A stretch of 60,318 nt of DNA from Candidatus Roizmanbacteria bacterium RIFCSPLOWO2_01_FULL_40_13 (GCA_001789745.1 MGAN01000010.1:1-60318); one strand, 5' to 3'; positions 38,009 through 49,187 are shown, numbered from the stretch's first letter. Translations and numbers: made by a program. The notes: generated by a model not told the origin, from the letters alone.

Positions 38009-39826
38009 ATGCAGAAAATCAAGTCAATCTTATTTATCTTGCTCCTGTTTTTGCTTGTCTATACGCGATTCGTGAATTTAACCTGGGGATTCCCCTACCC
38101 CATGCATCCGGATGAGCGAAATATGGCTGTCGCAATTCAGGGACTGAATTGCGATCCCGATTTAATCGGGACGAAATTCGAAATTCGAAAATGTTTGAAC
38201 CCTCATTTTTTTGCCTATGGGCAGTTTCCTCTTTACTTAGGTTCTGGAATTGCCTATTTTCTCAAGTTTTGGGACGGCGATCCGGGAACGCCGATTGGAT
38301 TTGAGGAAGCGGTGATAAGTCTGAGGATAATTTCTGCCGTAAGTTCGATTTTAAATGTTTTAGTTTTATTAAAAATTGCTAATTTATTAATTTTCAATTT
38401 TCAATTTTCAAATTCAAAAAATAGAAGTTTGGATTTGAATGAAATTTCCAATTTTCAAATTATAAATTTTCTGGTGTTGATATTTTCCCCCTTCTTCATC
38501 CAGTTTTCCCATTTTGGTACTACAGAGTCTTTACTGATGCTTTTTAACACGTTAATCGTTTATTTTTCTCTTAAGAAAGCGCTTGGATTAATTCTTTACT
38601 CCCGTTTTTTGACTCTCACTTCTCTTATCTCAGGTATGGCCATCGCCTCTAAAGTATCCTCCGTGATATTTCTGCTGGTTCCTCTTATCCTGATTCTGGA
38701 TGATCAAAACTTGACTAAATTCAAAAGATTTACGCAGGCCTTATATTTGATTAGCCTCACCTTGGTTTTCAGTCTAATATTTGCTCCGCATAATTTTATT
38801 TCTTTTCCCGAGTTTTTGGGGGCACTGGGCTATGAAGGCGACGTGGCATTTGGTTTATATAGGGCTTTTTATACCAAACAATTTGAGTTGACTAGCCCGA
38901 TTTTATTTCAGCTTGAGAAAATATTTCCTTATGCGCTTGGCTGGCCGATATATATTTTTTCACTGTCGGGATTTATCTTATTGCCTTTCAAAAAGGAGTT
39001 TAATATTTTGAGACTGGCTTTGTTAACCGGATTTCTTTCCAATGCTTTTTTCTATGCCAAGTGGACGAGATTCGTGAGCCCGATACTGCCGCTTATGCTG
39101 GTTTTTGGGATTTTATTTATTTTTCGACTCTGTGTAGCATTTTACAGTTTGATAAACTCAAAATTCAAAACCCAAAACTATCCCTTATTAATTTTAAATT
39201 TCATGTTTTATGTTTCAGGTTTTATTATGATCTTCCCCGGTCTAGCCCATCTTTCTATCTACCAAAACCCCGATGTCAGATTTACCGCTTCGGATTGGAT
39301 TTACAATAATATGCCGGACGGAAGTTATATTCTTTCGGAAACGGCAAACGTAGTTGATCTACCTGTTTCAACTTCCAACTTCCAACACCCGACTTCCAAT
39401 TACCAATACATCTCATTTAATTTTTATGACTTGGATGAAAATCCGGAGCTTCAGAATCAACTTGATGAGCATCTAGCCAAAGCTGATTATATATTTATTC
39501 CTTCAAGAAGAATTTTTGCCAACCACTGGTGTCCTGAAAATCCTCAATATTCAATCATCAATTTTCAGTCAATATTCAATCATCAATTTTTAAACATGGA
39601 AGATAAGTGTCAATATTTAAGAAAAAAATATCCGGTACTCAACGAATACTATGATAAGCTTTCCTCCGGCGAACTTGGATTTGAGCAAGTTGCGCAATTT
39701 GACTCTTTTCCTGAAATTTGTTTACCATACCGACTCGGATGCATAGAGTTTAATGATGAAAATGCCGAAGAAACCTGGACAGTTTTCGACCATCCGGTGT
39801 TTAGGATATATAAAAAAGATAATTAG
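38009..39826 (+). CDS. GT-C membrane glycosyltransferase (PMT/ArnT-like)
   Basis: A 605-residue protein with about 11 helices and the luminal/periplasmic loop PYPMHPDERNMA after the first helix, in which the acidic DE is the GT-C catalytic pair (as in dolichyl-phosphate-mannose-dependent PMT/ArnT enzymes). The C-terminal 150 residues form an outer domain. It likely uses a polyprenyl-phosphate sugar made by a GT2 such as the one at 15457-16209. The coding region contains several in-frame repeat words (TCCCGATTTAATCGGGA at 38155-38171, runs of attttcaattttcaa near 38390). It ends 4 bp inside the convergent M20 gene. Confidence 0.75.
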   Translation: MQKIKSILFILLLFLLVYTRFVNLTWGFPYPMHPDERNMAVAIQGLNCDPDLIGTKFEIRKCLNPHFFAYGQFPLYLGSGIAYFLKFWDGDPGTPIGFEEAVISLRIISAVSSILNVLVLLKIANLLIFNFQFSNSKNRSLDLNEISNFQIINFLVLIFSPFFIQFSHFGTTESLLMLFNTLIVYFSLKKALGLILYSRFLTLTSLISGMAIASKVSSVIFLLVPLILILDDQNLTKFKRFTQALYLISLTLVFSLIFAPHNFISFPEFLGALGYEGDVAFGLYRAFYTKQFELTSPILFQLEKIFPYALGWPIYIFSLSGFILLPFKKEFNILRLALLTGFLSNAFFYAKWTRFVSPILPLMLVFGILFIFRLCVAFYSLINSKFKTQNYPLLILNFMFYVSGFIMIFPGLAHLSIYQNPDVRFTASDWIYNNMPDGSYILSETANVVDLPVSTSNFQHPTSNYQYISFNFYDLDENPELQNQLDEHLAKADYIFIPSRRIFANHWCPENPQYSIINFQSIFNHQFLNMEDKCQYLRKKYPVLNEYYDKLSSGELGFEQVAQFDSFPEICLPYRLGCIEFNDENAEETWTVFDHPVFRIYKKDN

Positions 39827-40911
39827 TTAAGAGAGAGCAAGAAAGCTTTGAGGATTTTGTAATAGTCAGACAGGCCTTGTGTATCTACCCATTCGTTATC
39901 AGTATGCTGACCATAACCGATAGGCCCAAATGTTACTCCAGCGCACCCTGCCTGGTTAAAATGTCTTACGTCGGATCCTCCGTGTTTGGCTATAAATTGA
40001 GGCTGTGTTCCGGCTACTTTGTGTATTGATTTTCTTAATATTACGATAAATTTGCTATTTCCGTTCGTGTACACAGATGGTTCATTAAGCAATAGTTCTA
40101 ATTCTGCTTTATTTTTAATAATTTCCCGAAGTTTACTAATAACTCTATCTTTATCTTCTGGGATATAACGGATATCCAAGCAGGCGGAACATTCATCCGG
40201 CACCTTGTTAAAGGTTAGGTTTGTTGTTTCAGTTTTTGCCAAGTTTACGGTTGTTTTCCAAACTTCACTTTCAAATTCAGGGTAAACTTTCTTAATTTCG
40301 TAAAGTAAATCAATCATTTTCCAGACAGCATTTTTAGCTTGCCAAGGATAAGCTGCATGACCAGTTTTTCCTTTGGTTTTTATTTTCAACCAAATGATTC
40401 CTTTAGCCTTGTTTCCAATTTTAAAATCAGTAGGTTCACCAGAAATTACAAAATCAGTTTTAACCCCTTTATCTATCTGATATTTGGTACCATTTAGACC
40501 TCCAACTTCTTCATCAGTCACTAACTGCAATCCGAGCGGATAATTGACTTTATTTGCCAGTTCTTTAAAGATTAAAATCTCAACCGCAGCTGCAGCTTTC
40601 ATATCATACGCACCCCTACCATGAAGTTTTCCGTCTTTTTCAAAAGGCTTGAATTGATATGGTTTCCCCGGAATTACATCTAGATGAGCATTAAGGATAA
40701 CTCTGAATTGCTTTGATTTAGTCTTTTCAGACTGATATAATAAACTACGCGAATTGTAATTAGTAAACTCACTCGCAGTAAAACCGCTTAGTTGATATTT
40801 AGCTAGCTTGAGAATTTCGTTAATTTGTTGAGGTTTATCTTTAGTTGATTCAATGACAATTAATTGTTTTAATAGTGGTAAGACATCATTGATCATAGCG
40901 TATTTTAGCAA
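39823..40911 (-). CDS. M20-family deacylase, candidate N-acyl-L-amino-acid desuccinylase
   Basis: A 362-residue ArgE/DapE/ACY1-type metallohydrolase. Metal and catalytic residues are visible: NAHLDVIPG (H76, D78), GRGAYDMKAAAA (bridging D103), VTDEEVGG (E134/E135), SGEPTDF, and a C-terminal YGQHTDNEWVD (His ligand); KGKTGHAAYPWQAKNA marks the lid domain. M20 enzymes act on the L-form of N-acyl amino acids. In the known Geobacillus pathway an M20 enzyme removes succinate after racemisation, and here the gene is 9 bp behind a GNAT-like gene and near a racemase. That role is inferred; a peptidase is possible. Met6 (40896) is an alternative start. Confidence 0.8.
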   Translation of the reverse strand: MLKYAMINDVLPLLKQLIVIESTKDKPQQINEILKLAKYQLSGFTASEFTNYNSRSLLYQSEKTKSKQFRVILNAHLDVIPGKPYQFKPFEKDGKLHGRGAYDMKAAAAVEILIFKELANKVNYPLGLQLVTDEEVGGLNGTKYQIDKGVKTDFVISGEPTDFKIGNKAKGIIWLKIKTKGKTGHAAYPWQAKNAVWKMIDLLYEIKKVYPEFESEVWKTTVNLAKTETTNLTFNKVPDECSACLDIRYIPEDKDRVISKLREIIKNKAELELLLNEPSVYTNGNSKFIVILRKSIHKVAGTQPQFIAKHGGSDVRHFNQAGCAGVTFGPIGYGQHTDNEWVDTQGLSDYYKILKAFLLSLN

Positions 40912-40920
40912 AATTGTGAA

Positions 40921-42096
40921 TTAAATAGATTTCCATTGTTGGTGAAGTCGATAGGTTAGCTCTTCAATTCTACTCCCTCGATAATCGCGAGCTAACTCTA
41001 TATCTACAATTTGACGTCTAATATCGTATCTAGCCGTCCCAAAATGAAATGTAGTTGGAATAATTCTTACGCCGCCATTTACTCTGAATCTTCCACCGGG
41101 AAAAACACCAAGCGGAATTAGGCCGACTTCGTAACACGATTCTTGAGTTTGTATATTTCCCGGGTGATTAGGAATTACAATTTCAACAAATCTTGATTGT
41201 TTTAGAGCGCTTTGTACTTCTTCGATCAATTGACCACTATTAACATTTCCTTCGGCGAAAATAGTTGAAAAGTGGATACCGGCAGTTGCCTCACTTGTAA
41301 GTTTTGGCGTGACTTTTTCATTTTGTTTGTCAGAATTGATTATATATGGTTGTATAGCAAAAGCACGTTCATAAGTTGCTCGGGCAATTTCGGACAAACT
41401 GATAGAGCCAGATATATTTTGTTGGGGTGAATAAAGTGGTGTCGATGTGTCTATGTGCTCAGGTTGAAGGTATAATCTTGACTGTAAAAATGCTTCCTGA
41501 TGGGGGTTTCCTTTGGGTGGATGGACTTGAAAGCGCGGGACACAAAGGAGCCATGGTTTGAGTCCTGCCACTTCGTTGATATGTTGAGTTGCGCCGCCTG
41601 CCTCAAGAGTTGAACCGTCAGGTAATATTATGGTTTTTGCTAATCTAAGATCCGCCTGCAAAGCCCATATTTGATTTGCAATCGGAGAACCCAAAAAATC
41701 TAGTAATCTTTGATACATTACTACCGTATTATTTACTCTTCCGTTTAATATAGTTCCGTCAGGCAAATAAGTTCCTTCAGGTAATTTTACTGTTCGGCAA
41801 AGTTCGGCTAATCCAGCTTCAAGCATTACTTCGATATTTGCCATACCCACGGGTTTTCCGTTTACATACATTAGCCAAGTAAGCATTTCACCTGCTTTCT
41901 GGGCGCCGATTAAAGTTTCTATAGGCTGAGATAGAGCTGGGTGGCCCTGTCCATATACCGTCCCTAATAAATCTCTATGAACTTGAGCTCTTGTTCTCGG
42001 ATCTATTTGATCACTCCACGGACCAACTACGGATTCAACATCACTATATCCTTCCACTTTACTTCTTAATATGTCTATAATTTGCGTTTCTACCAT
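40921..42096 (-). CDS. GNAT-like N-acyltransferase candidate, paralogue of the 47495-49054 product
   Basis: A 391-residue soluble protein. WLMYVNGKPVGMANIEV at about residues 74-90 looks like the beta2-beta3 hairpin of a GNAT fold, AELCRT (97-102) like beta4, and ADLRLAKT (148-155) and ATQHINEVAGLKPWLLCVPRF like beta5 and the closing region. The C-terminal third repeats a similar pattern (VEIVIPNHPGNIQTQESCYEVGLIPLGVFPGG). The blocks ELxRT and DxRLAKT recur with nearly the same spacing in the product at 47495-49054. I infer an acyl- or succinyl-CoA:D-amino-acid N-acyltransferase; no direct homologue is recognised. An attenuator hairpin ends 18 nt upstream of the start. Confidence 0.55.
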   Translation of the reverse strand: MVETQIIDILRSKVEGYSDVESVVGPWSDQIDPRTRAQVHRDLLGTVYGQGHPALSQPIETLIGAQKAGEMLTWLMYVNGKPVGMANIEVMLEAGLAELCRTVKLPEGTYLPDGTILNGRVNNTVVMYQRLLDFLGSPIANQIWALQADLRLAKTIILPDGSTLEAGGATQHINEVAGLKPWLLCVPRFQVHPPKGNPHQEAFLQSRLYLQPEHIDTSTPLYSPQQNISGSISLSEIARATYERAFAIQPYIINSDKQNEKVTPKLTSEATAGIHFSTIFAEGNVNSGQLIEEVQSALKQSRFVEIVIPNHPGNIQTQESCYEVGLIPLGVFPGGRFRVNGGVRIIPTTFHFGTARYDIRRQIVDIELARDYRGSRIEELTYRLHQQWKSI

Positions 42097-42111
42097 ATTA
42101 TTTATAAGCCA

Positions 42112-42137
42112 TTAAAAAACCCCGCTTGCGCGGGGTT
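42112..42137 (-). terminator. Attenuator (intrinsic terminator) of unit 3
   Basis: On the minus strand AACCCCGC-GCAA-GCGGGGTT forms an 8-bp GC-rich stem with a 4-nt loop followed by TTTTTTAA, ending just before the start codon of the GNAT-like gene. The 5' arm can alternatively pair perfectly over 8 bp with GCGGGGTT of the leader ORF (plus-strand 42168-42175). The position inside the leader of a transcribed gene identifies it as an attenuator rather than an operon-end terminator. Confidence 0.8.
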
Positions 42138-42158
42138 GTCTTTGAAATTATTTAATAA

Positions 42159-42224
42159 TTAAAAAATAACCCCGCTAAAAGTGGGATTAAAGAAAAATGT
42201 AAATAATTTACCAGGATTTTTCAT
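42159..42224 (-). CDS. Phe-rich leader peptide of unit 3
   Basis: A 21-codon ORF runs from ATG to TAA ahead of the attenuator. Six of 21 residues are Phe, with the central segment LFTFFFNPTF, reminiscent of the pheA and pheST leader peptides. Codons 17-19 (AGC GGG GTT) form the antiterminator strand, and codons 14-15 (CCC AC) can pair with it. A ribosome stalled on the Phe run would free the antiterminator; one reaching the stop would cover it. It lacks a Shine-Dalgarno sequence and lies about 3 nt from the predicted transcription start. Confidence 0.6.
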   Translation of the reverse strand: MKNPGKLFTFFFNPTFSGVIF

Positions 42225-42233
42225 TAATATATA

Positions 42234-42261
42234 ATGATAACATTTAAATTTAAAATTGCAA
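42234..42261 (-). promoter_or_regulatory. Promoter of unit 3 (minus strand)
   Basis: -35 TTGCAA (42256-42261), 16-bp spacer, -10 TATCAT (minus-strand reading of 42234-42239). Predicted start near 42227, only a few bases before the leader ATG. The -35 is its own reverse complement and is shared with the divergent promoter. Confidence 0.5.
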
Positions 42262-42284
42262 ATCTAATTATTATAGGTTATAAT
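42256..42284 (+). promoter_or_regulatory. Promoter of the radical SAM unit
   Basis: -35 TTGCAA, 17-bp spacer, consensus -10 TATAAT (42279-42284). Predicted start about 42291, two bases before the ATG of the leader ORF. A second TATAAT at 42289-42294 overlaps that ATG and is less likely to be used. Confidence 0.65.
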
Positions 42285-42292
42285 TTGATATA

Positions 42293-42328
42293 ATGTGGAG
42301 CAAGAAGTTAGTTATTTTTTCTCTATAG
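42293..42328 (+). CDS. Leader peptide of the radical SAM unit (11 codons)
   Basis: ATG at the predicted transcript start opens MWSKKLVIFSL and stops at TAG 42328. An overlapping GTG frame (42295-42348) would give a 17-residue peptide with YFFSIVF and end inside the candidate antiterminator. Either could be the sensing ORF; both are hydrophobic and contain Phe. Short, leaderless and without Shine-Dalgarno, so support comes only from position and analogy with the two other units. Confidence 0.35.
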   Translation: MWSKKLVIFSL

Positions 42329-42363
42329 TTTTTACGGTTAAGCGGTAAATTTAATAATAGTAT

Positions 42364-42386
42364 AACCCGCTATTGGCGGGTTTTTT
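42364..42386 (+). terminator. Attenuator (intrinsic terminator) of the radical SAM unit
   Basis: AACCCGC-TATTG-GCGGGTT plus TTTT (42364-42386) forms a 7-bp stem and U-tract ending 4 nt before ATG 42391. Possible antiterminator partners upstream are GGTTA (42336-42340) with TAACC and AGCGG (42341-42345) with CCGCT. TTTAC and GTAAA around them can form the competing leader hairpin. Pairings are shorter than in the other two attenuators. Confidence 0.7.
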
Positions 42387-42390
42387 AATT

Positions 42391-43674
42391 ATGGCGGAGT
42401 TTTCGCAACAAATAAATGAACAATTGTTGATGATTGATGCTGGATCGCAGTTTGTGAGCATTAATCCGAGGGAGATTCATCCAAAGCTTTATAAACCTTT
42501 CAAACCGGAATCTCTCGTACGAGCGCCTCATACAAGGAAGGCAGATTATTTGTCGATTGGGACGGCCTATATAGTAGTTGAGTCTAATACGGGTCCGATT
42601 GGCAGAAGTATACTTAATACTTTAGCCAGTGTTGACGGACATACTTGTGGAGCTGCTTGCAGAAATTGCTATCTAATTAGAGGTGGAGACAGACCGGATT
42701 ATACTCCAGAACCAGATGAAACCAAATGGATGAAAACAACGCTCGAAAACAAAGGAATAAACGTAATCATTACAGGAGCTGAAGCCTTATCTCTACCTGA
42801 TTATTTTGAAGCCGGTTTATTTGATGAAAAGCCATATCTTTTAAGCAGCGGAATACCTATCGTAGCTAATCCCGGTAGGTCAATGACAGATATTGCACGA
42901 GCTGGCATTCAAAATGTGCAGATGTCGTTACACGGCGCTGTAGAGACAGACAATGTTTTTAATGGAGCCGCTCCGGAAATTGTTGTTCGAGCAGTTGAAA
43001 ACATTCGTAAGTTCAACGAACAGTTTGGGACATATATTGGAGTGGTGTTAAATGTTACAGTAAGTAAACATAATCTAAATCAATTAAAACCAATTGCAGA
43101 TTTCGTATTAGCAGAATTGAACTGTGAAGGTGTGCGATTTAATCGACATAAGGCTGCAGGAGGTGTTTTTAAGGATTTGATGCTTGATCCTGACGATCAT
43201 ATTTTATTTTATGAGCAGATAAGGAGAATTAGAGAAAAGTATCCAAAAGATTTAACTGGAAGAATGGTAAGCGTATCTGGTGATTTTGGTAAATTACATA
43301 GAACCGCATCTCCCGGAAAACCCCCATACGAGTGTCCCGCCGGTTTACCGGGCGGAGAAATTGCCATAATTCCGGCGACAGACGGTAAACACCGTGTTTA
43401 TTCTTGTTTGGAGGTAAGAGAGCCTTCTTTACAGATGGGCTATTTCTACGGAAGAGAGGGTAATTTTTCTACGGAGATGTCTGGGAGTCTTCGACTTCAT
43501 ACAACCCCATTCGAGGACTTAAAAGATGAGATGTTACGAGCGTCGCTTGGGATGTCTCAAACGGACGATGGTTGTATAGCTTATACAATTACCCGTGACC
43601 ATCCATCAGCCAGAGCAATGATAAAGTATCTACAGACAAGTCTTAATCCGGGCCAACCCAATTTAATTCTTTAG
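42391..43674 (+). CDS. Radical SAM enzyme with SPASM-like C-terminus
   Basis: A 427-residue protein from ATG 42391; the TTG 18 bp upstream lies in the attenuator stem and is rejected. The [4Fe-4S]/SAM motif is C86-GAA-C90-RN-C93 (CxxxCxxC) in DGHTCGAACRNCYL. VIITGAEALSLPDYF corresponds to the GGE-like strand. A later CPAGLPGGEIAIIP...VYSC (C315, C339) plus C395 resembles the start of a SPASM auxiliary-cluster domain, though it has too few Cys for two full clusters. It may modify an amino acid or a peptide; no precursor peptide gene is visible. It is convergent with the aminotransferase gene (12-bp overlap) and shares the attenuation architecture of its neighbours. Confidence 0.75.
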   Translation: MAEFSQQINEQLLMIDAGSQFVSINPREIHPKLYKPFKPESLVRAPHTRKADYLSIGTAYIVVESNTGPIGRSILNTLASVDGHTCGAACRNCYLIRGGDRPDYTPEPDETKWMKTTLENKGINVIITGAEALSLPDYFEAGLFDEKPYLLSSGIPIVANPGRSMTDIARAGIQNVQMSLHGAVETDNVFNGAAPEIVVRAVENIRKFNEQFGTYIGVVLNVTVSKHNLNQLKPIADFVLAELNCEGVRFNRHKAAGGVFKDLMLDPDDHILFYEQIRRIREKYPKDLTGRMVSVSGDFGKLHRTASPGKPPYECPAGLPGGEIAIIPATDGKHRVYSCLEVREPSLQMGYFYGREGNFSTEMSGSLRLHTTPFEDLKDEMLRASLGMSQTDDGCIAYTITRDHPSARAMIKYLQTSLNPGQPNLIL

Positions 43675-45291
43675 TCTTCCTTTATTTTCTCTGGCTAATC
43701 CTGAACTGACTCCAGACATTAAGTTATAAATTTTTTTTACTTCTTTTGATACGTTTCCTTTTAAAACTTGTTTGACCCGCCTAAAAATTATTCTGGCAAC
43801 ATTTTCATTAGTTTCGGAAAGTTCCAAAAGCATTGGTTGATATCTTATGGCACTAGGTAAAGCTCCCACCAAGACTCCATCCTCAACAAGAAGTGCAATC
43901 TGAACCAATTTTGCATTATCATTTGTGGCTACAAATACACCTCGGTTAAGAAACTTGCCAAAAAGATTTTTTATTGGAAATTTTTCTTGGTTTGCAATTT
44001 TTTCAATAGCATTCGATTTTTGTTCAAACCAATTTTGTAGTCGATAATCCCTGAGTAATTCAGCTACGAGCAATACGCGCAATAAAGGACCATTCATTTG
44101 ATTGGTTGTAATCTGAGTAAACGGGTAGGCTTCTTTTTCAATTGTGCTGGGCAGCATTACCATTCCAAATGGCTGGCCGTTTGAGGCTGATTTGGCTGTT
44201 GTTAGAACTAAGAGATCAAAATCGGAAAAAATTTTATCGACATTTTCACCCCAATAACTACCAGTTCGTCCCAGTTGTTGAACACAGTCTAGGATAATTG
44301 GGAGCCGACTTTTTTTCATTAATTTTTTAACTTCAAGCAATAATTTAATATCAGTTTTTATTAGTCCGAGATCTCCCAAAATATCTGGCTCCAGATATAA
44401 CCCCGAAACCTGTTTTTTGGCAATTTTCTCACTTAACTTTTTAATGAACTCATTACGATAGTCTTTTGTTGGGGCAGGTAGGGATCTGTCAACCCAGGTA
44501 GCTTTACCCATTCTTCTAATTTGTTGATTGTCAACGCCAAACCCAGTTGCTTCTCTGGCTGATCCAAATCCGCCCGCCCAAGTTCCGTCAACGGCAAGAA
44601 CCCGAGCATTATCAAGTTTTAGCACTTTTTCAGCATAGGCATTTACTGTTTCAATGGCAATTGAGTCGACTATTGAGGCAGAAGATTCCATATGAATATA
44701 TAAATTTTTTCGGCTTTTTTTTACTGGATAAAGATTTTTTAGAATTTCAAAAGCAAAAGACTGTCTTAAACCGGGATGATATGCGTTGCAAACATTATCT
44801 TTCCAACCCATGAAATCTTCTATTCTATCCATCATCAGCAACCAGGGATTTTCTGCTCCGAGATTTATTGAGGAAGCGGAATTTAATACATCAAGCACTG
44901 CTCCGTCTAGATCATTGAGTCCAACCAAGTATTTTATTCCGGCATATTGTTTTTTGATGATTAACCCATCCAGTATCCAAGCTCGAGCGGCATGAGGGAA
45001 AACTCCATCTATAATTTTTCTTTTGGCTTTCATTTCTTGATTGAAATACCAAACGCGCTTTGCAGATTTTCTATTACCTTCCAAAGCTTCTTGACTTAAC
45101 TTTAAAGAGTAGATTAGTGTATCTCTAAATTTTTTTTTAAAAAGATTTGATTCCCGTTGCAGAATCTTTTTTTCATCACTTTTGAGTGCTAGTTCATTTT
45201 TAGTATACTTAGAAAGTTTTCTGAGTATGTTTTTTGATGCTGTATTGGCTACATCCTCAATAAATTTAATTTCATGACTATGATTTTTCAT
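43663..45291 (-). CDS. Class III PLP-dependent aminotransferase-like protein
   Basis: The 542-residue protein has, after a long helical N-terminus (about 95 residues, extra to the family), a fold-type I core. The pyridoxal-N Asp is in ILDCVQQLGRTGSYW (D335), the Schiff-base Lys in LTTAKSASNGQPFGMV (K367), and a closing LVGALPSAIRYQPMLLELSE matches the substrate Arg region of ornithine/lysine/GABA aminotransferases. It could feed 2-oxo acids or semialdehydes to and from amino acids; the substrate is unknown. Its ATG overlaps the dipeptidase stop (TAATG), so it is translationally coupled as the last gene of unit 1. Confidence 0.7.
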   Translation of the reverse strand: MKNHSHEIKFIEDVANTASKNILRKLSKYTKNELALKSDEKKILQRESNLFKKKFRDTLIYSLKLSQEALEGNRKSAKRVWYFNQEMKAKRKIIDGVFPHAARAWILDGLIIKKQYAGIKYLVGLNDLDGAVLDVLNSASSINLGAENPWLLMMDRIEDFMGWKDNVCNAYHPGLRQSFAFEILKNLYPVKKSRKNLYIHMESSASIVDSIAIETVNAYAEKVLKLDNARVLAVDGTWAGGFGSAREATGFGVDNQQIRRMGKATWVDRSLPAPTKDYRNEFIKKLSEKIAKKQVSGLYLEPDILGDLGLIKTDIKLLLEVKKLMKKSRLPIILDCVQQLGRTGSYWGENVDKIFSDFDLLVLTTAKSASNGQPFGMVMLPSTIEKEAYPFTQITTNQMNGPLLRVLLVAELLRDYRLQNWFEQKSNAIEKIANQEKFPIKNLFGKFLNRGVFVATNDNAKLVQIALLVEDGVLVGALPSAIRYQPMLLELSETNENVARIIFRRVKQVLKGNVSKEVKKIYNLMSGVSSGLARENKGRLKN

Positions 45292-46343
45292 TATTTCCTA
45301 GCCTCAATTGCTAATTGCCGAAGTTCCTCGCGACTAAAAAAGTGTTTATCATATTCTGCAGCATCATAAGGAAAAACTTTACCAGTATTGGGATCAAAAT
45401 TTTTTATCGGGCCGTAGCGAGTTTGATATCCAGATATTAAAGTTCCATCAGGATTAGCCCCGGCCAAATTATCTCCATATGAGGCGTGCCAGTCCTCACC
45501 AGGGTAGACAGCAAAACCTGACATTTCCATTACGGTTAGGAAGAGTTGCCTGGTTTGCCATTCATTTGCAGTAACATAGGGACAGTTGAGATTGACCAAA
45601 GCATCTCCCATAGGATAGTCATTACCCAGAGGTAAAGGATCGCCATTAACTGTTCTTAACGTAACGTCCACAGCCGCGCCTCCCTTGTGTCCGGCAATTC
45701 TGGGTGTTATGGCTGTCTTACTTTGTGCTTCATTCATAATGAGATCAAAGTCTTTTTCAGGATCCCAATCTGGATGTTCAAGCAAAATAAATTGAGTTAT
45801 TCTTCTTTTTAACAACCCCTCTTGGACTCCTACTGGCCTGAATGCGTCTTCAAAATGCGGTTGCAAATCAATAGCATTTAAGGCGTTGACAACTGACAGC
45901 AGCCTTTGAGCAACGCCTTCGCGTGTCCAGAAAACTCTAGGTTTTCCGGCCCAACCATTTTCAGAGGCAGGGTGAAATGGTTTATCGCTAAAACTGACTG
46001 ATGCACCTGATAGTTGCGCAAAATAATCCGGAAGAGAAACCATTCTCTCATCGGATTCCTCAATATGAACCTCCATTAATTTTTTTTGAAAGGCTACGCT
46101 TTCTGCTGCATAGATAATTCCCAAATCGCGATTTACGGTTTTTTTTTGCGTATTTGTTAATGGTTGTGCCAAAAAACCATTTTCAGGCAGTTCCAGTATA
46201 ATAGATTCTACGCCTATAACTTCAGCCATCCTATTGACCAATGGCTGAACTCCTGGAAGAAATTCTTGACGAGGTTTTTCAAACCTAATATTCAATTTTG
46301 AATTTAACTCTACTACCATGGTTTTTGCTTCTCCTGAAGTCAT
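45291..46343 (-). CDS. VanX/DdpX-type D-alanyl-D-alanine dipeptidase
   Basis: From the ATG one base after the racemase stop (TAATATG) the product is 350 residues. An in-frame start 84 bp upstream would overlap the racemase and is rejected. The M15D motifs are complete: DAFRPVGVQ (transition-state Arg), AGHKGGAAVDVTL (Zn ligands H219, D226) and PGEDWHASYGD (base E283, Zn ligand H286; numbering from this start). No signal peptide, so it works in the cytosol on free D,D-dipeptides such as D-Ala-D-Ala, delivering D-amino acids. It lies between a racemase and an aminotransferase. The N-terminal 110 residues are extra to VanX (202 residues). Confidence 0.78.
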   Translation of the reverse strand: MTSGEAKTMVVELNSKLNIRFEKPRQEFLPGVQPLVNRMAEVIGVESIILELPENGFLAQPLTNTQKKTVNRDLGIIYAAESVAFQKKLMEVHIEESDERMVSLPDYFAQLSGASVSFSDKPFHPASENGWAGKPRVFWTREGVAQRLLSVVNALNAIDLQPHFEDAFRPVGVQEGLLKRRITQFILLEHPDWDPEKDFDLIMNEAQSKTAITPRIAGHKGGAAVDVTLRTVNGDPLPLGNDYPMGDALVNLNCPYVTANEWQTRQLFLTVMEMSGFAVYPGEDWHASYGDNLAGANPDGTLISGYQTRYGPIKNFDPNTGKVFPYDAAEYDKHFFSREELRQLAIEARK

Positions 46344-46344
46344 A

Positions 46345-47490
46345 TTATTTTGATTTAAAAACAATAAAGCTTTTTGTAATATTCTGTAATATATTTTTGT
46401 CAACATCCCATCCTCTTCCTGGGACATCTTTTACGTGAATATACCCCCCGTCTCTAACCATGGGTTCGACAACCGGATCCTGACCTTCCTTAAAATAGGC
46501 AGCGGTTCCAGAAATATCAGAAGGTAAATTGACACCAGGATGGGTTGCTATAGCTAAACTATGAGCTTTACTTGGCGTAGGTTCCAACATCCCACCAACC
46601 CACGTTGCAACTCCTTCAGACTCTGCCATCTCAATCATTCGTTTTGCTATTGGTAAACCCCCAACTCTAGCAATTTTTATATTTATAATTGGAATCCCAC
46701 CTTTTATGGCTTGATCCATATGATCAATTGTTTCAATACTTTCGTCTAAACAAATTCGGCCCGGTATTTGATTTCGATAGAACATTTGTTGTAATTTAAC
46801 ATGATGGCGAATATCATCATGAGCAAGCGGTTGTTCTATCATTAAAAGATTTAATTCTCCAAATGCTTTTAGTATATTCATATGATCCCCATTATTATGA
46901 TCAAAGGATGAATTAGCGTCAACCATTAATAGTAATAGAGGATAAGTTTGTCTGATTTGTGCAACCTTTTTAAAATCATCATATGATGGACCCACCTTTA
47001 TTTTGATTCTTCTAAAGCCTTGAGCAATTTGCCTTTCTATTTCTTCAGGAGAGGCACTTTTAGGAATGCTAATGCCTACTTCCACGGTCCTGTTCATTCC
47101 GCCGACGAGTCGATATAAAGGAACATCCTTCGCCTGAGCATCAATATCAAAAAATAAATTTGCGAAACCAGCCTTAAAGATGTTGTGTCCTACGATTGGT
47201 CCTAAGCGATCAACTATTTCTTCCGCATCGCCCATATCAACGCCGACAACATTCCGGCCAACCCGTTGCAATAACTCCCAAGCTTCAAAAGTAGATTCAG
47301 GATTGTAAAATGGAAATGGTAGTGTATCAATGGTAGCCCAACCTCGATAACCATTTGTGCTTTCAGCTTGCAAAGCAATCATGTCTCTTTGAGGTCCTAC
47401 AATTCTAGGATGTCCTTTAACTTCACCTAGGGGAAAAGCTTTAACTAATGTTGGTTTAATTAATCTAGCTTCAAGTGTTTCTATTCTCAT
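46345..47490 (-). CDS. N-acyl(succinyl)amino-acid racemase / OSBS-like enolase-superfamily enzyme
   Basis: A 381-residue muconate-lactonizing-type protein with the whole active-site set: general acid/base K163-x-K165 (RIKIKVGPSYDDF), metal ligands D191 (MVDANSSF), E219 (MIEQPLAHDD) and D249 (CLDES), the opposite base K272 (NIKIARVGG), and VGGMLEPTPSKAHSLAIATHPG. These are the signatures of the NSAR/OSBS subgroup (MenC2, NAAAR). No men genes are nearby, so racemisation of N-acyl amino acids is favoured over menaquinone synthesis. The gene starts 4 bp after the GNAT-like gene and couples to the D,D-dipeptidase. Confidence 0.85.
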   Translation of the reverse strand: MRIETLEARLIKPTLVKAFPLGEVKGHPRIVGPQRDMIALQAESTNGYRGWATIDTLPFPFYNPESTFEAWELLQRVGRNVVGVDMGDAEEIVDRLGPIVGHNIFKAGFANLFFDIDAQAKDVPLYRLVGGMNRTVEVGISIPKSASPEEIERQIAQGFRRIKIKVGPSYDDFKKVAQIRQTYPLLLLMVDANSSFDHNNGDHMNILKAFGELNLLMIEQPLAHDDIRHHVKLQQMFYRNQIPGRICLDESIETIDHMDQAIKGGIPIINIKIARVGGLPIAKRMIEMAESEGVATWVGGMLEPTPSKAHSLAIATHPGVNLPSDISGTAAYFKEGQDPVVEPMVRDGGYIHVKDVPGRGWDVDKNILQNITKSFIVFKSK

Positions 47491-47494
47491 TATT

Positions 47495-49054
47495 TTAATT
47501 ATTAATATGGAGAGGACCGGCTTCTGCCAGGTCCTGAAAAATTTGTAATGCTTCCTCTCTTGTTTCTGCTAATTCACCTTGATAATACTTTTCCGGCATA
47601 TCAGGATCCACGGGATCGTTAGCGCCAGTCCCCAGTTTAGCATAAGAAATTAGGATTGCATCACCATTTCCTCGACTAGAAGGAACCCATCCATTACAGA
47701 CAAAACCAAAATCCTTCAGAGTTTTTATAATTCCGGTAATTCTCTTTGGCTCTACCCCACCCCCTAAAGTAGCGTCAACATAAACTTCAACTGACGGGGC
47801 CTCTCCTTGCACCGAAATTTGGAGGGCTTCAAGTAAGGAAAGTGTTTGAATTTTTCCCGTATTTCGCTCTTTGAATTCAAAATCAGTATCAACAATATCG
47901 ATTTTGGTAAAAATGTCAGAAGTTCGACCATGTTTTGTGGGAGTAAAATTTAATACGACCTCAATCTCCTCAGGGGGAATTGCACTAATATCTTCTACGG
48001 AACCATTATGTGTAATTCGAGGAAGAGTTCCAAAGGTGCCAGAAAGAAATTTGCTTACTCGTTCGGCATCATGTGGATCGGGTATAAATAAAGTTTTCTC
48101 GGACAAACTTTGTTTATAAGATTCGGGAAATGTTGGTTTAAAAATGAAAAGAAACGGTTCAGTTCTTTCCAGATTATAGCGCCAACCTACCGATGAAAAT
48201 CCAAAACCTAAGAACTCACCAAATTGCTGTCCTCCAAAAAACACACTCTGTACGCCTCGACCGCCGGGAAATTCAGGATTCCAGGTTTTGGCAAGTCTTA
48301 TATCACTGTAAATCATAGTCGCTGACTTACCGATTTTTTCTGGGTCAGCGATAAATCTTGGATCGGTTAATAAATGATATAATCTAAGCTTTGAAACACC
48401 TCTCAAGGGAACATTGACTAACTCAGGAGTTTTATCCGCTTTCGTACCGGTCCGTCCTAATTCGACCGCATAGCCTCTTTGTCCTAAGATATCATCTCTT
48501 ATGACGTTGCCAAAGACGGCAACAGTATCACCACGCGAATTTTGTACTGCGTACATAAAAAATTTTCCTGTTTCAACGTCATCGACTATTGCTTTAGGAT
48601 TTTTTTGTTTTAACGGATAGCGTGTTCCTTCGTTTCCATCGGGATATGTCTGCTGAATTACGTCTGCGTATTGATTGGCTACGTTTATTAAATGTTGTCT
48701 ATTTTTTGGATCAGAATAAAGCAGAGGATTTTCAGTATAGCTGAATCCTGCGCTCCTTAAATTATAGTTAGATTCTATGATGTCTGGAAGCATAGTAGCT
48801 ATGGTTTCGAAATTCTGCATAAAGATTCGTCGTTGAAGTGGCGCGTTAGGACCTGAAAATATATCGGGCGGAAATTCATTACTCGTTAAAATAATACCCA
48901 ATAGATGTTCTGGGTGAATTAAAGTAGGCTTATACTGAGGATCGGTCAAAGCAGCATCGTGAATCATATCTAATAATTCTTTTTTTCTTGATCCAATTGT
49001 TGTTTCTAAATTGCTTAAAACGGATTCAAACTTTGCTTGATATATTTCAGTCAT
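47495..49054 (-). CDS. GNAT-like N-acyltransferase candidate, first gene of unit 1
   Basis: A 519-residue soluble protein. Residues 160-310 show a GNAT-type pattern: FFMYAVQNSRGDTVAVFGNVI, AVELGRTG (197-203), SDIRLAKT (250-257) and a closing FSSVGWRYNLERTEPFLFIFKP. The last 120 residues form a second alpha/beta unit (VEVYVDATLGGGVEPKRITG...FGFVCNGWVPSS). ELxRT and DxRLAKT match the product at 40921-42096 with nearly the same spacing, so the two are paralogues with different N-termini. It is followed by the racemase at 4 bp, the place of the succinyltransferase in known NSAR operons. Function inferred. Confidence 0.55.
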   Translation of the reverse strand: MTEIYQAKFESVLSNLETTIGSRKKELLDMIHDAALTDPQYKPTLIHPEHLLGIILTSNEFPPDIFSGPNAPLQRRIFMQNFETIATMLPDIIESNYNLRSAGFSYTENPLLYSDPKNRQHLINVANQYADVIQQTYPDGNEGTRYPLKQKNPKAIVDDVETGKFFMYAVQNSRGDTVAVFGNVIRDDILGQRGYAVELGRTGTKADKTPELVNVPLRGVSKLRLYHLLTDPRFIADPEKIGKSATMIYSDIRLAKTWNPEFPGGRGVQSVFFGGQQFGEFLGFGFSSVGWRYNLERTEPFLFIFKPTFPESYKQSLSEKTLFIPDPHDAERVSKFLSGTFGTLPRITHNGSVEDISAIPPEEIEVVLNFTPTKHGRTSDIFTKIDIVDTDFEFKERNTGKIQTLSLLEALQISVQGEAPSVEVYVDATLGGGVEPKRITGIIKTLKDFGFVCNGWVPSSRGNGDAILISYAKLGTGANDPVDPDMPEKYYQGELAETREEALQIFQDLAEAGPLHINN

Positions 49055-49064
49055 TATTTCTAAA

Positions 49065-49090
49065 TAAAAAAACCCGCCCTTGGGCGGGAA
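49065..49090 (-). terminator. Attenuator (intrinsic terminator) of unit 1
   Basis: On the minus strand CCCGCCC-AA-GGGCGGG followed by TTTTTTTA forms a perfect 7-bp stem ending about 11 nt before the start codon. TCCCGCC of the 5' arm can instead pair perfectly with GGCGGGA at 49124-49130 (minus-strand reading), forming an antiterminator. Confidence 0.85.
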
Positions 49091-49123: not shown

Positions 49124-49143
49124 TCCCGCCGCATCAGATGCGG
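49124..49143 (-). promoter_or_regulatory. Anti-antiterminator hairpin and antiterminator strand of unit 1
   Basis: Minus-strand CCGCAT-CTG-ATGCGG (49129-49143) forms a 6-bp hairpin whose 3' arm runs into GGCGGGA, the strand that could otherwise open the terminator. The 5' arm overlaps the last codons of the leader ORF. The 1:2, 2:3 and 3:4 pairing options match the classical attenuation scheme. Confidence 0.7.
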
Positions 49144-49187
49144 TCAATAAAGAGGACAAAAAGAATTGAATAAATCTTGATTGACAT
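49134..49187 (-). CDS. Leader peptide of unit 1 (17 codons)
   Basis: A 17-residue ORF, MSIKIYSILFVLFIDRI, starts with ATG and ends with TGA inside the 1:2 hairpin. It is rich in Ile (5), Phe, Leu and Val. Stalling of the ribosome in the last third would prevent hairpin 1:2 and allow the antiterminator. No Shine-Dalgarno sequence. A hairpin CCCGATTGATCGGG (49204-49217) precedes it. Confidence 0.5.
   Translation of the reverse strand: MSIKIYSILFVLFIDRI

Follow-up and report, generated by a model that had tools for sequence, protein, structure and literature searches.

What would a Roizmanbacteria cell do with a racemase, two hydrolases, a PLP enzyme, a radical SAM protein, and two orphan proteins encoded side by side? 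The window analyzed here is contig C10 (60,318 nt) of genome G000, whose assembly measures 1.04 Mb and is 89% complete. The initial annotation placed seven genes at positions 39823 to 49054, where all seven ORFs were confirmed, and read them as a single route converting D- to L-amino acids. By gene spacing, however, the island forms three transcription units, with the radical SAM gene on the opposite strand, and the single seven-gene route did not hold up. Unit 1, on the minus strand, comprises a 519-aa orphan (519aa; 47495 to 49054), an NSAR-type enolase-superfamily racemase (46345 to 47490), an N-terminally extended, VanX-like M15 dipeptidase (45291 to 46343), and AT3, a PLP enzyme of the class III aminotransferase/racemase fold (43663 to 45291), which are separated by gaps of 4 nt and 1 nt and then a 1-nt overlap. 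Unit 2, also on the minus strand, consists of GNATa, a 391-aa orphan (40921 to 42096), and, after a 9-nt gap, an M20 deacylase of the DapE/ArgE type (39823 to 40911). The radical SAM gene (rSAM; 42391 to 43674) forms the third unit, on the plus strand. The likely start of the VanX-like protein is M29 of the listed ORF rather than an ATG within the NSAR gene, and that of rSAM is ATG 42391 rather than TTG 42373.

The GC3 of the seven island genes was 0.25 to 0.32, compared with 0.35 to 0.46 in 11 sampled flanking genes, and the flanking genes GT39, bS6, SSB, and CysS are syntenic in two congeners. Thus, the island is real and contamination is excluded. The low GC3 also fits a possible horizontal acquisition. 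The slot between GT39 and CysS carries different cargo in the congeners. In G005, it holds a GCS2-like 611-aa gene, genes for proteins of 564 and 254 aa, and an M20 gene, without NSAR. In G004, the order is BCAT-like-rSAM-AT3-VanX-NSAR-519, where the BCAT-like label is our own reading of a sequence without a Pfam match. G004 retains 519-NSAR-VanX-AT3-rSAM but lacks GNATa and a nearby M20 gene, and this presence of unit 1 by itself counts against the salvage route considered below. Also conserved in G000 and G004 are tandem Ddl-like ATP-grasp genes, scoring below the Ddl cut-off and flanked by thioredoxin reductase and an ATP-PPase-like gene (L107:7155-9264, L108:8307-10395).

The racemase matched Pfam MR_MLE_C with 115.6 bits, above the cut-off, and the greater part of it aligned with N-acylamino-acid racemases of known structure (2zc8, E 4.7e-48). 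Residues K163, K165, D191, N193, E219, D249, E250, and K272 and the K+3 arginine R275 were invariant among 17 aligned NSARs; the two catalytic lysines, three metal ligands, and K+3 arginine of an NSAR-type enzyme are all present, as the initial annotation had reported for the NSAR/OSBS catalytic set. That annotation had named an OSBS activity with men genes elsewhere in the genome as one outcome that would overturn its reading. menD over the cut-off was found in none of the 15 NSAR genomes, compared with 7 of 14 controls. A menaquinone OSBS role for the racemase was thus rejected, such a function being unlikely on this gene content.

In the known irreversible D-to-L pathway of the Geobacillus type, a GNAT succinyltransferase and an M20 desuccinylase flank the NSAR step, as described by Sakai et al. 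2006 (cited in PMC8762209). The window resembles it in having an NSAR with all catalytic residues and an M20 gene nearby, but its acyltransferase is putative, VanX, AT3, and rSAM are added, and the genes are split into three attenuated units. The neighborhoods were compared across 15 Microgenomatia NSAR loci from 15 genomes, the window included, of which 14 entered the NSAR tree. At the family level, 7 of 72 genomes had a full-length NSAR; among the genomes sampled from the class, 13 of 374 had an NSAR at E ≤ 1e-60. M20 lay within 10 kb of NSAR at 10 of the 15 loci (the window and 9 of the 14 others; G004 lacks it), and GNAT, class III or HisC-type PLP enzymes, or GCS2-type ligases accompany NSAR at many loci. 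The co-occurrence of NSAR, M20, GNAT, and PLP enzymes in Patescibacteria relatives, proposed earlier as a check, was thus borne out. M20 occurs in 43 of 72 family genomes irrespective of NSAR; therefore, other M20 roles exist too.

The composition of these loci varied. G016 has a compact AT3-GNAT-NSAR-M20 cluster and G222 has GNAT-NSAR-M20 with HisC, both with true GNATs; as in Lysinibacillus, where the known M20-GNAT-NSAR order was observed directly, these recall the Geobacillus type. Other CPR loci differ from it in that GCS2-type ligases replace GNAT: AT3-GCS2-NSAR-HisC-M20 in G031, 501-GCS2-NSAR-M20 in G200 and G323, and the same with rSAM in between in G044. G010 carries 483aa-NSAR-AMP ligase-M20-beta-lactamase-like-GNATa, and G332 carries GNAT-like-NSAR-VanX together with genes for M28 and an Asp/Glu racemase. 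A GCS2-like (glutamate-cysteine ligase-type) gene adjoins NSAR in five genomes (L037:4656-6200, L075:11139-12647, L087:6000-7517, L088:10213-11730, L090:9764-11218), which points to gamma-glutamyl or a similar group, not succinyl, as the block. The Beta-lactamase2-family protein of the G010 cluster (L031:16688-17503) shows apparent SxxK, SDN, and KGG motifs, and a signal peptide is not evident. Further M20 operons, preceded by Ile/Leu/Val-type leaders, contain DUF1177, a P-loop-like protein of about 326 to 350 aa, and an orphan of about 750 aa (L039:7764-13766, L041:1243-6246); G012, one of the genomes with such an operon, also has a truncated NSAR.

For unit 2, the M20 assignment was sound (Pfam, 104 bits, above the cut-off). 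The two proteins previously called GNAT-like fared less well. Neither 519aa nor GNATa matched a family in Pfam, NCBIfam, or PHROGs, profile comparison of both with true GNATs was not significant, and neither was that of 519aa with GNATa; GNAT identity is thus unproven. The 519-aa family had no PDB profile match, and AlphaFold models of both orphans reached a pLDDT of 41, from alignments of two to three sequences. Orthologues of 519aa occur in G004 (68%) and G017 (60%), and a distant relative (20%) is the first gene of the G010 NSAR operon, whose cluster also holds a 68% orthologue of GNATa. 519aa, encoded first in unit 1, may be an N-acylating or ligating enzyme. Of the 374 class genomes sampled, 2 carried its family, and no relatives were found in the viral contigs and plasmids searched.

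The VanX-like protein matched M15/VanX in Pfam with 39.9 bits, above the cut-off. It has the HxxxxxxD, ExxH, and Arg pattern of the M15 D,D-dipeptidase fold, and H247, D254, E311, and H314 (zinc and catalytic residues) as well as R197 are invariant in three relatives, so the complete Zn site reported earlier stands. Aligned to 1r44, it shares the Zn ligands, catalytic Glu, and Arg of the VanX D-Ala-D-Ala dipeptidase. It differs in its long N-terminal extension, in a substrate that is only putative, and in scoring 34.6 bits against the NCBIfam equivalog cut-off of 320. In the NSAR tree, the window racemase groups solely with those of G332 and G004, the three sharing a long stem with support of 100/100, and a VanX-like gene is present at three of three loci of this divergent clade versus none of the 11 other tree loci. 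The chance of such an exact match is 1/364 (14 loci, three at a time). On this distribution, the VanX-like enzyme probably works with the divergent racemase, either feeding it D-residues or freeing its product. The upstream role as a D-Ala source assigned in the initial annotation is unproven as written, as the enzyme may occupy the hydrolase slot after the racemase, held elsewhere by M20, M28, or S51.

This placement allows unit 1 to be read as a closed cycle, in which 519aa would couple an amino acid to a D-substrate, the divergent NSAR would epimerize the dipeptide, and the VanX-like enzyme would split it, VanX thus serving for release and not as a D-Ala source. The restriction of VanX to the divergent clade, in the M20/M28/S51 position, agrees with such a cycle, as do the GCS2-type ligases in the activating slot of G031, G044, G200, G323, and G204; G004, moreover, would need no M20. 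However, no ligase match was obtained for 519aa, the G332 locus encodes an M28 peptidase and a small GNAT-like ORF in addition to VanX, and a dipeptide epimerase activity of this NSAR is hypothetical. We consider the cycle somewhat unlikely.

A feature overlooked in the initial annotation is that each island unit opens with a leader-peptide attenuator. Upstream of the 519-aa gene, a short ORF on the minus strand encodes the leader peptide MSIKIYSILFVLFIDRI (49134 to 49187), followed by an intrinsic terminator, CCCGCCCAAGGGCGGG-T7 (49073 to 49088), with the antiterminator GGCGGGA upstream. Before GNATa, also on the minus strand, a Phe-rich leader, MKNPGKLFTFFFNPTFSGVIF (42159 to 42224), precedes a terminator (42119 to 42135) with an 8-nt antiterminator, GCGGGGTT, upstream. 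On the plus strand, the rSAM leader MWSKKLVIFSL (42293 to 42328) precedes a terminator (42364 to 42382) before ATG 42391, with a weaker antiterminator of 5 nt. In all three units, the terminator hairpin and U-tract lie immediately before the first gene, and these three are the only attenuator sites in the window. The sequences thus carry the leader ORF, antiterminator, and terminator of ribosome-mediated attenuators, less strongly for rSAM. They resemble the pheL, ilvL, and leuL attenuators (Rfam RF01859, RF00512) in having short ORFs that carry control codons, 2:3 and 3:4 hairpins as alternatives, and a U-tract before the first gene. They differ in standing in a Patescibacteria genome, ahead of salvage-type genes, and in scoring below the gathering thresholds, that is, outside the Rfam families: Phe_leader and Leu_leader gave weak, sub-threshold matches at both minus-strand leaders, and an E-value scan of the island found no family above its gathering score. 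In a literature search, with an incomplete library, no paper joining leader-peptide attenuation with Patescibacteria was found.

Similar leaders recur in relatives. The corresponding leader in G004 is MKSKVWSIMYVLFLTP, GNATa in G010 is preceded by a Phe-type leader beginning MRNLRKFENNFFFFTPLYRGAIF, and GNAT-M20 in G069 by an F/Y leader; at G016 (AT3), G332, and the G071 AT3 locus, no leader was found. Seven leaders were used to build a covariance model, which, with rough calibration, detected sixteen further leaders (E < 0.002) across 618 kb of fetched sequence; these loci had been chosen because NSAR/M20 or other genes had been searched for there. A rule-based scan of the same loci, independent of the model, gave 26 terminator-before-gene sites, 21 of which had a leader ORF and an antiterminator of at least 6 nt, whereas in shuffled upstream DNA such antiterminators averaged 1.8 (maximum, 5). 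The 12 terminators located elsewhere also exceeded the shuffles in antiterminators, making the shuffle comparison alone a weak control. Of the 38 strong intrinsic terminators in the 618 kb, 26 lay just before a gene; in these genomes, genes may often be controlled by early termination.

At all six interpretable sites in relatives, control codons match the downstream pathway (L095:175-292, L097:184-295, L087:9705-9776, L018:1388-1453, L093:1949-2020, L076:6952-7014). NNIIIVNILI and KLVIVSIIL leaders precede aminotransferase and acetolactate synthase genes (ilv, two sites; G016 adds ketol-acid reductoisomerase), REIIIASP precedes citramalate synthase, YYFFFYP precedes a transaldolase gene and one that weakly matches DAHP synthase, NFYFF precedes prephenate dehydrogenase, and the Met-type VMMMP precedes homocysteine S-methyltransferase-NSAR in G071. 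For each codon-matched leader, 0.3 to 5% of background intergenic short ORFs had equal residue density. Since leaders of the same build precede matching genes, the codons are taken to name the amino acid served. The relatives' ilv, citramalate, DAHP synthase, and tyrA genes also contradict, for the group, the earlier premise that these organisms import nearly all amino acids. Aromatic residues are kept even where codons differ (TAC TTC TTC TAC TTT in G069), and together with the codon-pathway match and the Phe-rich unit 2 leader (FTFFF), this makes the GNATa-M20 unit read as Phe-responsive. The NSAR leader of unit 1 is rich in Ile/Leu/Val/Phe and less specific; taken by itself, it is unexceptional against background (fraction, 0.06 for ILVFY, and 0.54 for ILV in G004). 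In vitro, NSAR enzymes serve to produce L-Met, L-Val, and aromatic amino acids (PMC7431475), in agreement with these readings.

Unit 1-type leaders share a conserved SI(I/L)(F/Y)VLF motif, which presumably resembles hydrophobic stalling leaders, so that the leaders might be arrest peptides sensing drugs or metabolites instead of amino acids. We regard this as extremely improbable, because codon identity follows the pathway at six independent sites, and the runs of Phe, Met, and Ile change with the downstream gene.

The codons also bear on direction. The NSAR reaction is reversible, its direction being set by hydrolase stereospecificity, which weighs against a firm D-to-L assignment. The racemase could run from L to D to supply D-amino acids, given that family searches of G000 found neither alr nor an Asp/Glu racemase; a need for D-amino acids in this genome is possible. 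AT3 may point the same way: it has the class III aminotransferase fold (Pfam, 46 bits, above the cut-off) and the PLP residues, including the PLP lysine and aspartate (K367, D335, and Q338, invariant in five relatives), but it may be either a transaminase, as in the initial annotation, or an amino-acid racemase, the racemases being its best PDB profile matches (55.6 bits; next, acetylornithine AT, 48.1 bits). No AT3 relative worth the name was found in the viral contigs and plasmids searched. In addition, pairs of NSAR and D-succinylase yield D-amino acids in vitro (PMC7431475). Even so, a supply of D-amino acids seems improbable, given that attenuators opening on charged-tRNA shortage imply an L-amino-acid product, VanX degrades D,D-dipeptides, and the G000 assembly is 89% complete.

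The radical SAM protein, with CX3CX2C and the conserved extra cysteines C321, C345, and C401, could, together with the PLP enzyme, racemase, and amide enzymes, make a specialized metabolite or nonprotein amino acid. The orphans, the rarity of the full set (519aa family, 2 of 374 class genomes), and ligases that vary among relatives would suit such a product. It is nonetheless very improbable, as codon-specific attenuators are common to ilv, aro, and met genes, and no carrier protein, NRPS, or export gene is among the annotated neighbors. The leader codons would thus favor a supply of hydrophobic L-amino acids by D-to-L salvage over D-amino-acid or natural-product synthesis. D-to-L conversion, or more broadly L release from blocked forms, is favored because opening on charged-tRNA shortage suits L-amino-acid delivery. 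From the earlier D-to-L proposal, the conversion itself gains from the co-occurrence of NSAR, M20, GNAT, and PLP enzymes, the lack of menD, and the attenuators, whereas the single route, the two GNATs, and the VanX D-Ala source do not carry over.

On balance, we lean toward reading the island as salvage genes that are induced by starvation and supply hydrophobic L-amino acids, for example, phenylalanine. From the genes, catalytic residues, leaders, pairing, and recurrence seen in the sequence, we infer the chemistry, blocking group, direction, and charged-tRNA response as follows. An N-acyltransferase or ligase (519aa and/or GNATa), a step taken at other loci by true GNATs or GCS2-type carboxylate-amine ligases, would block the amino group of a D-amino acid, and NSAR would racemize the blocked form. 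The block would then be removed by a stereospecific hydrolase of amides, either M20 or, in the divergent NSAR clade, the VanX-like enzyme, drawing flux to the L form, and AT3 and rSAM may use these amino acids, or related ones, as substrates. When charged tRNA runs short, the ribosome would stall on the leader, the 2:3 antiterminator would form, and the genes would be read, with unit 2 (GNATa-M20) answering mainly to Phe and unit 1 (519-NSAR-VanX-AT3) to Ile/Leu/Val/Phe.

More tentatively, Microgenomatia may possess a regulon of modular salvage operons, each combining an activating enzyme, NSAR, a hydrolase, and a PLP enzyme and each controlled by a leader-peptide attenuator, with leader codons naming the L-amino acid supplied; we hold this as possible rather than probable. 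The window would be its most elaborate case, with a divergent racemase and a VanX-like release enzyme. If the salvage reading is true, some CPR bacteria do more than import L-amino acids: switches of the pheL/ilvL type would sense the scarce one, and the induced enzymes would regenerate it from D-forms or blocked forms, for example, from the walls or debris of neighbors. Leader codons would then point directly to what the orphan operons of uncultured organisms produce, making their functions testable.
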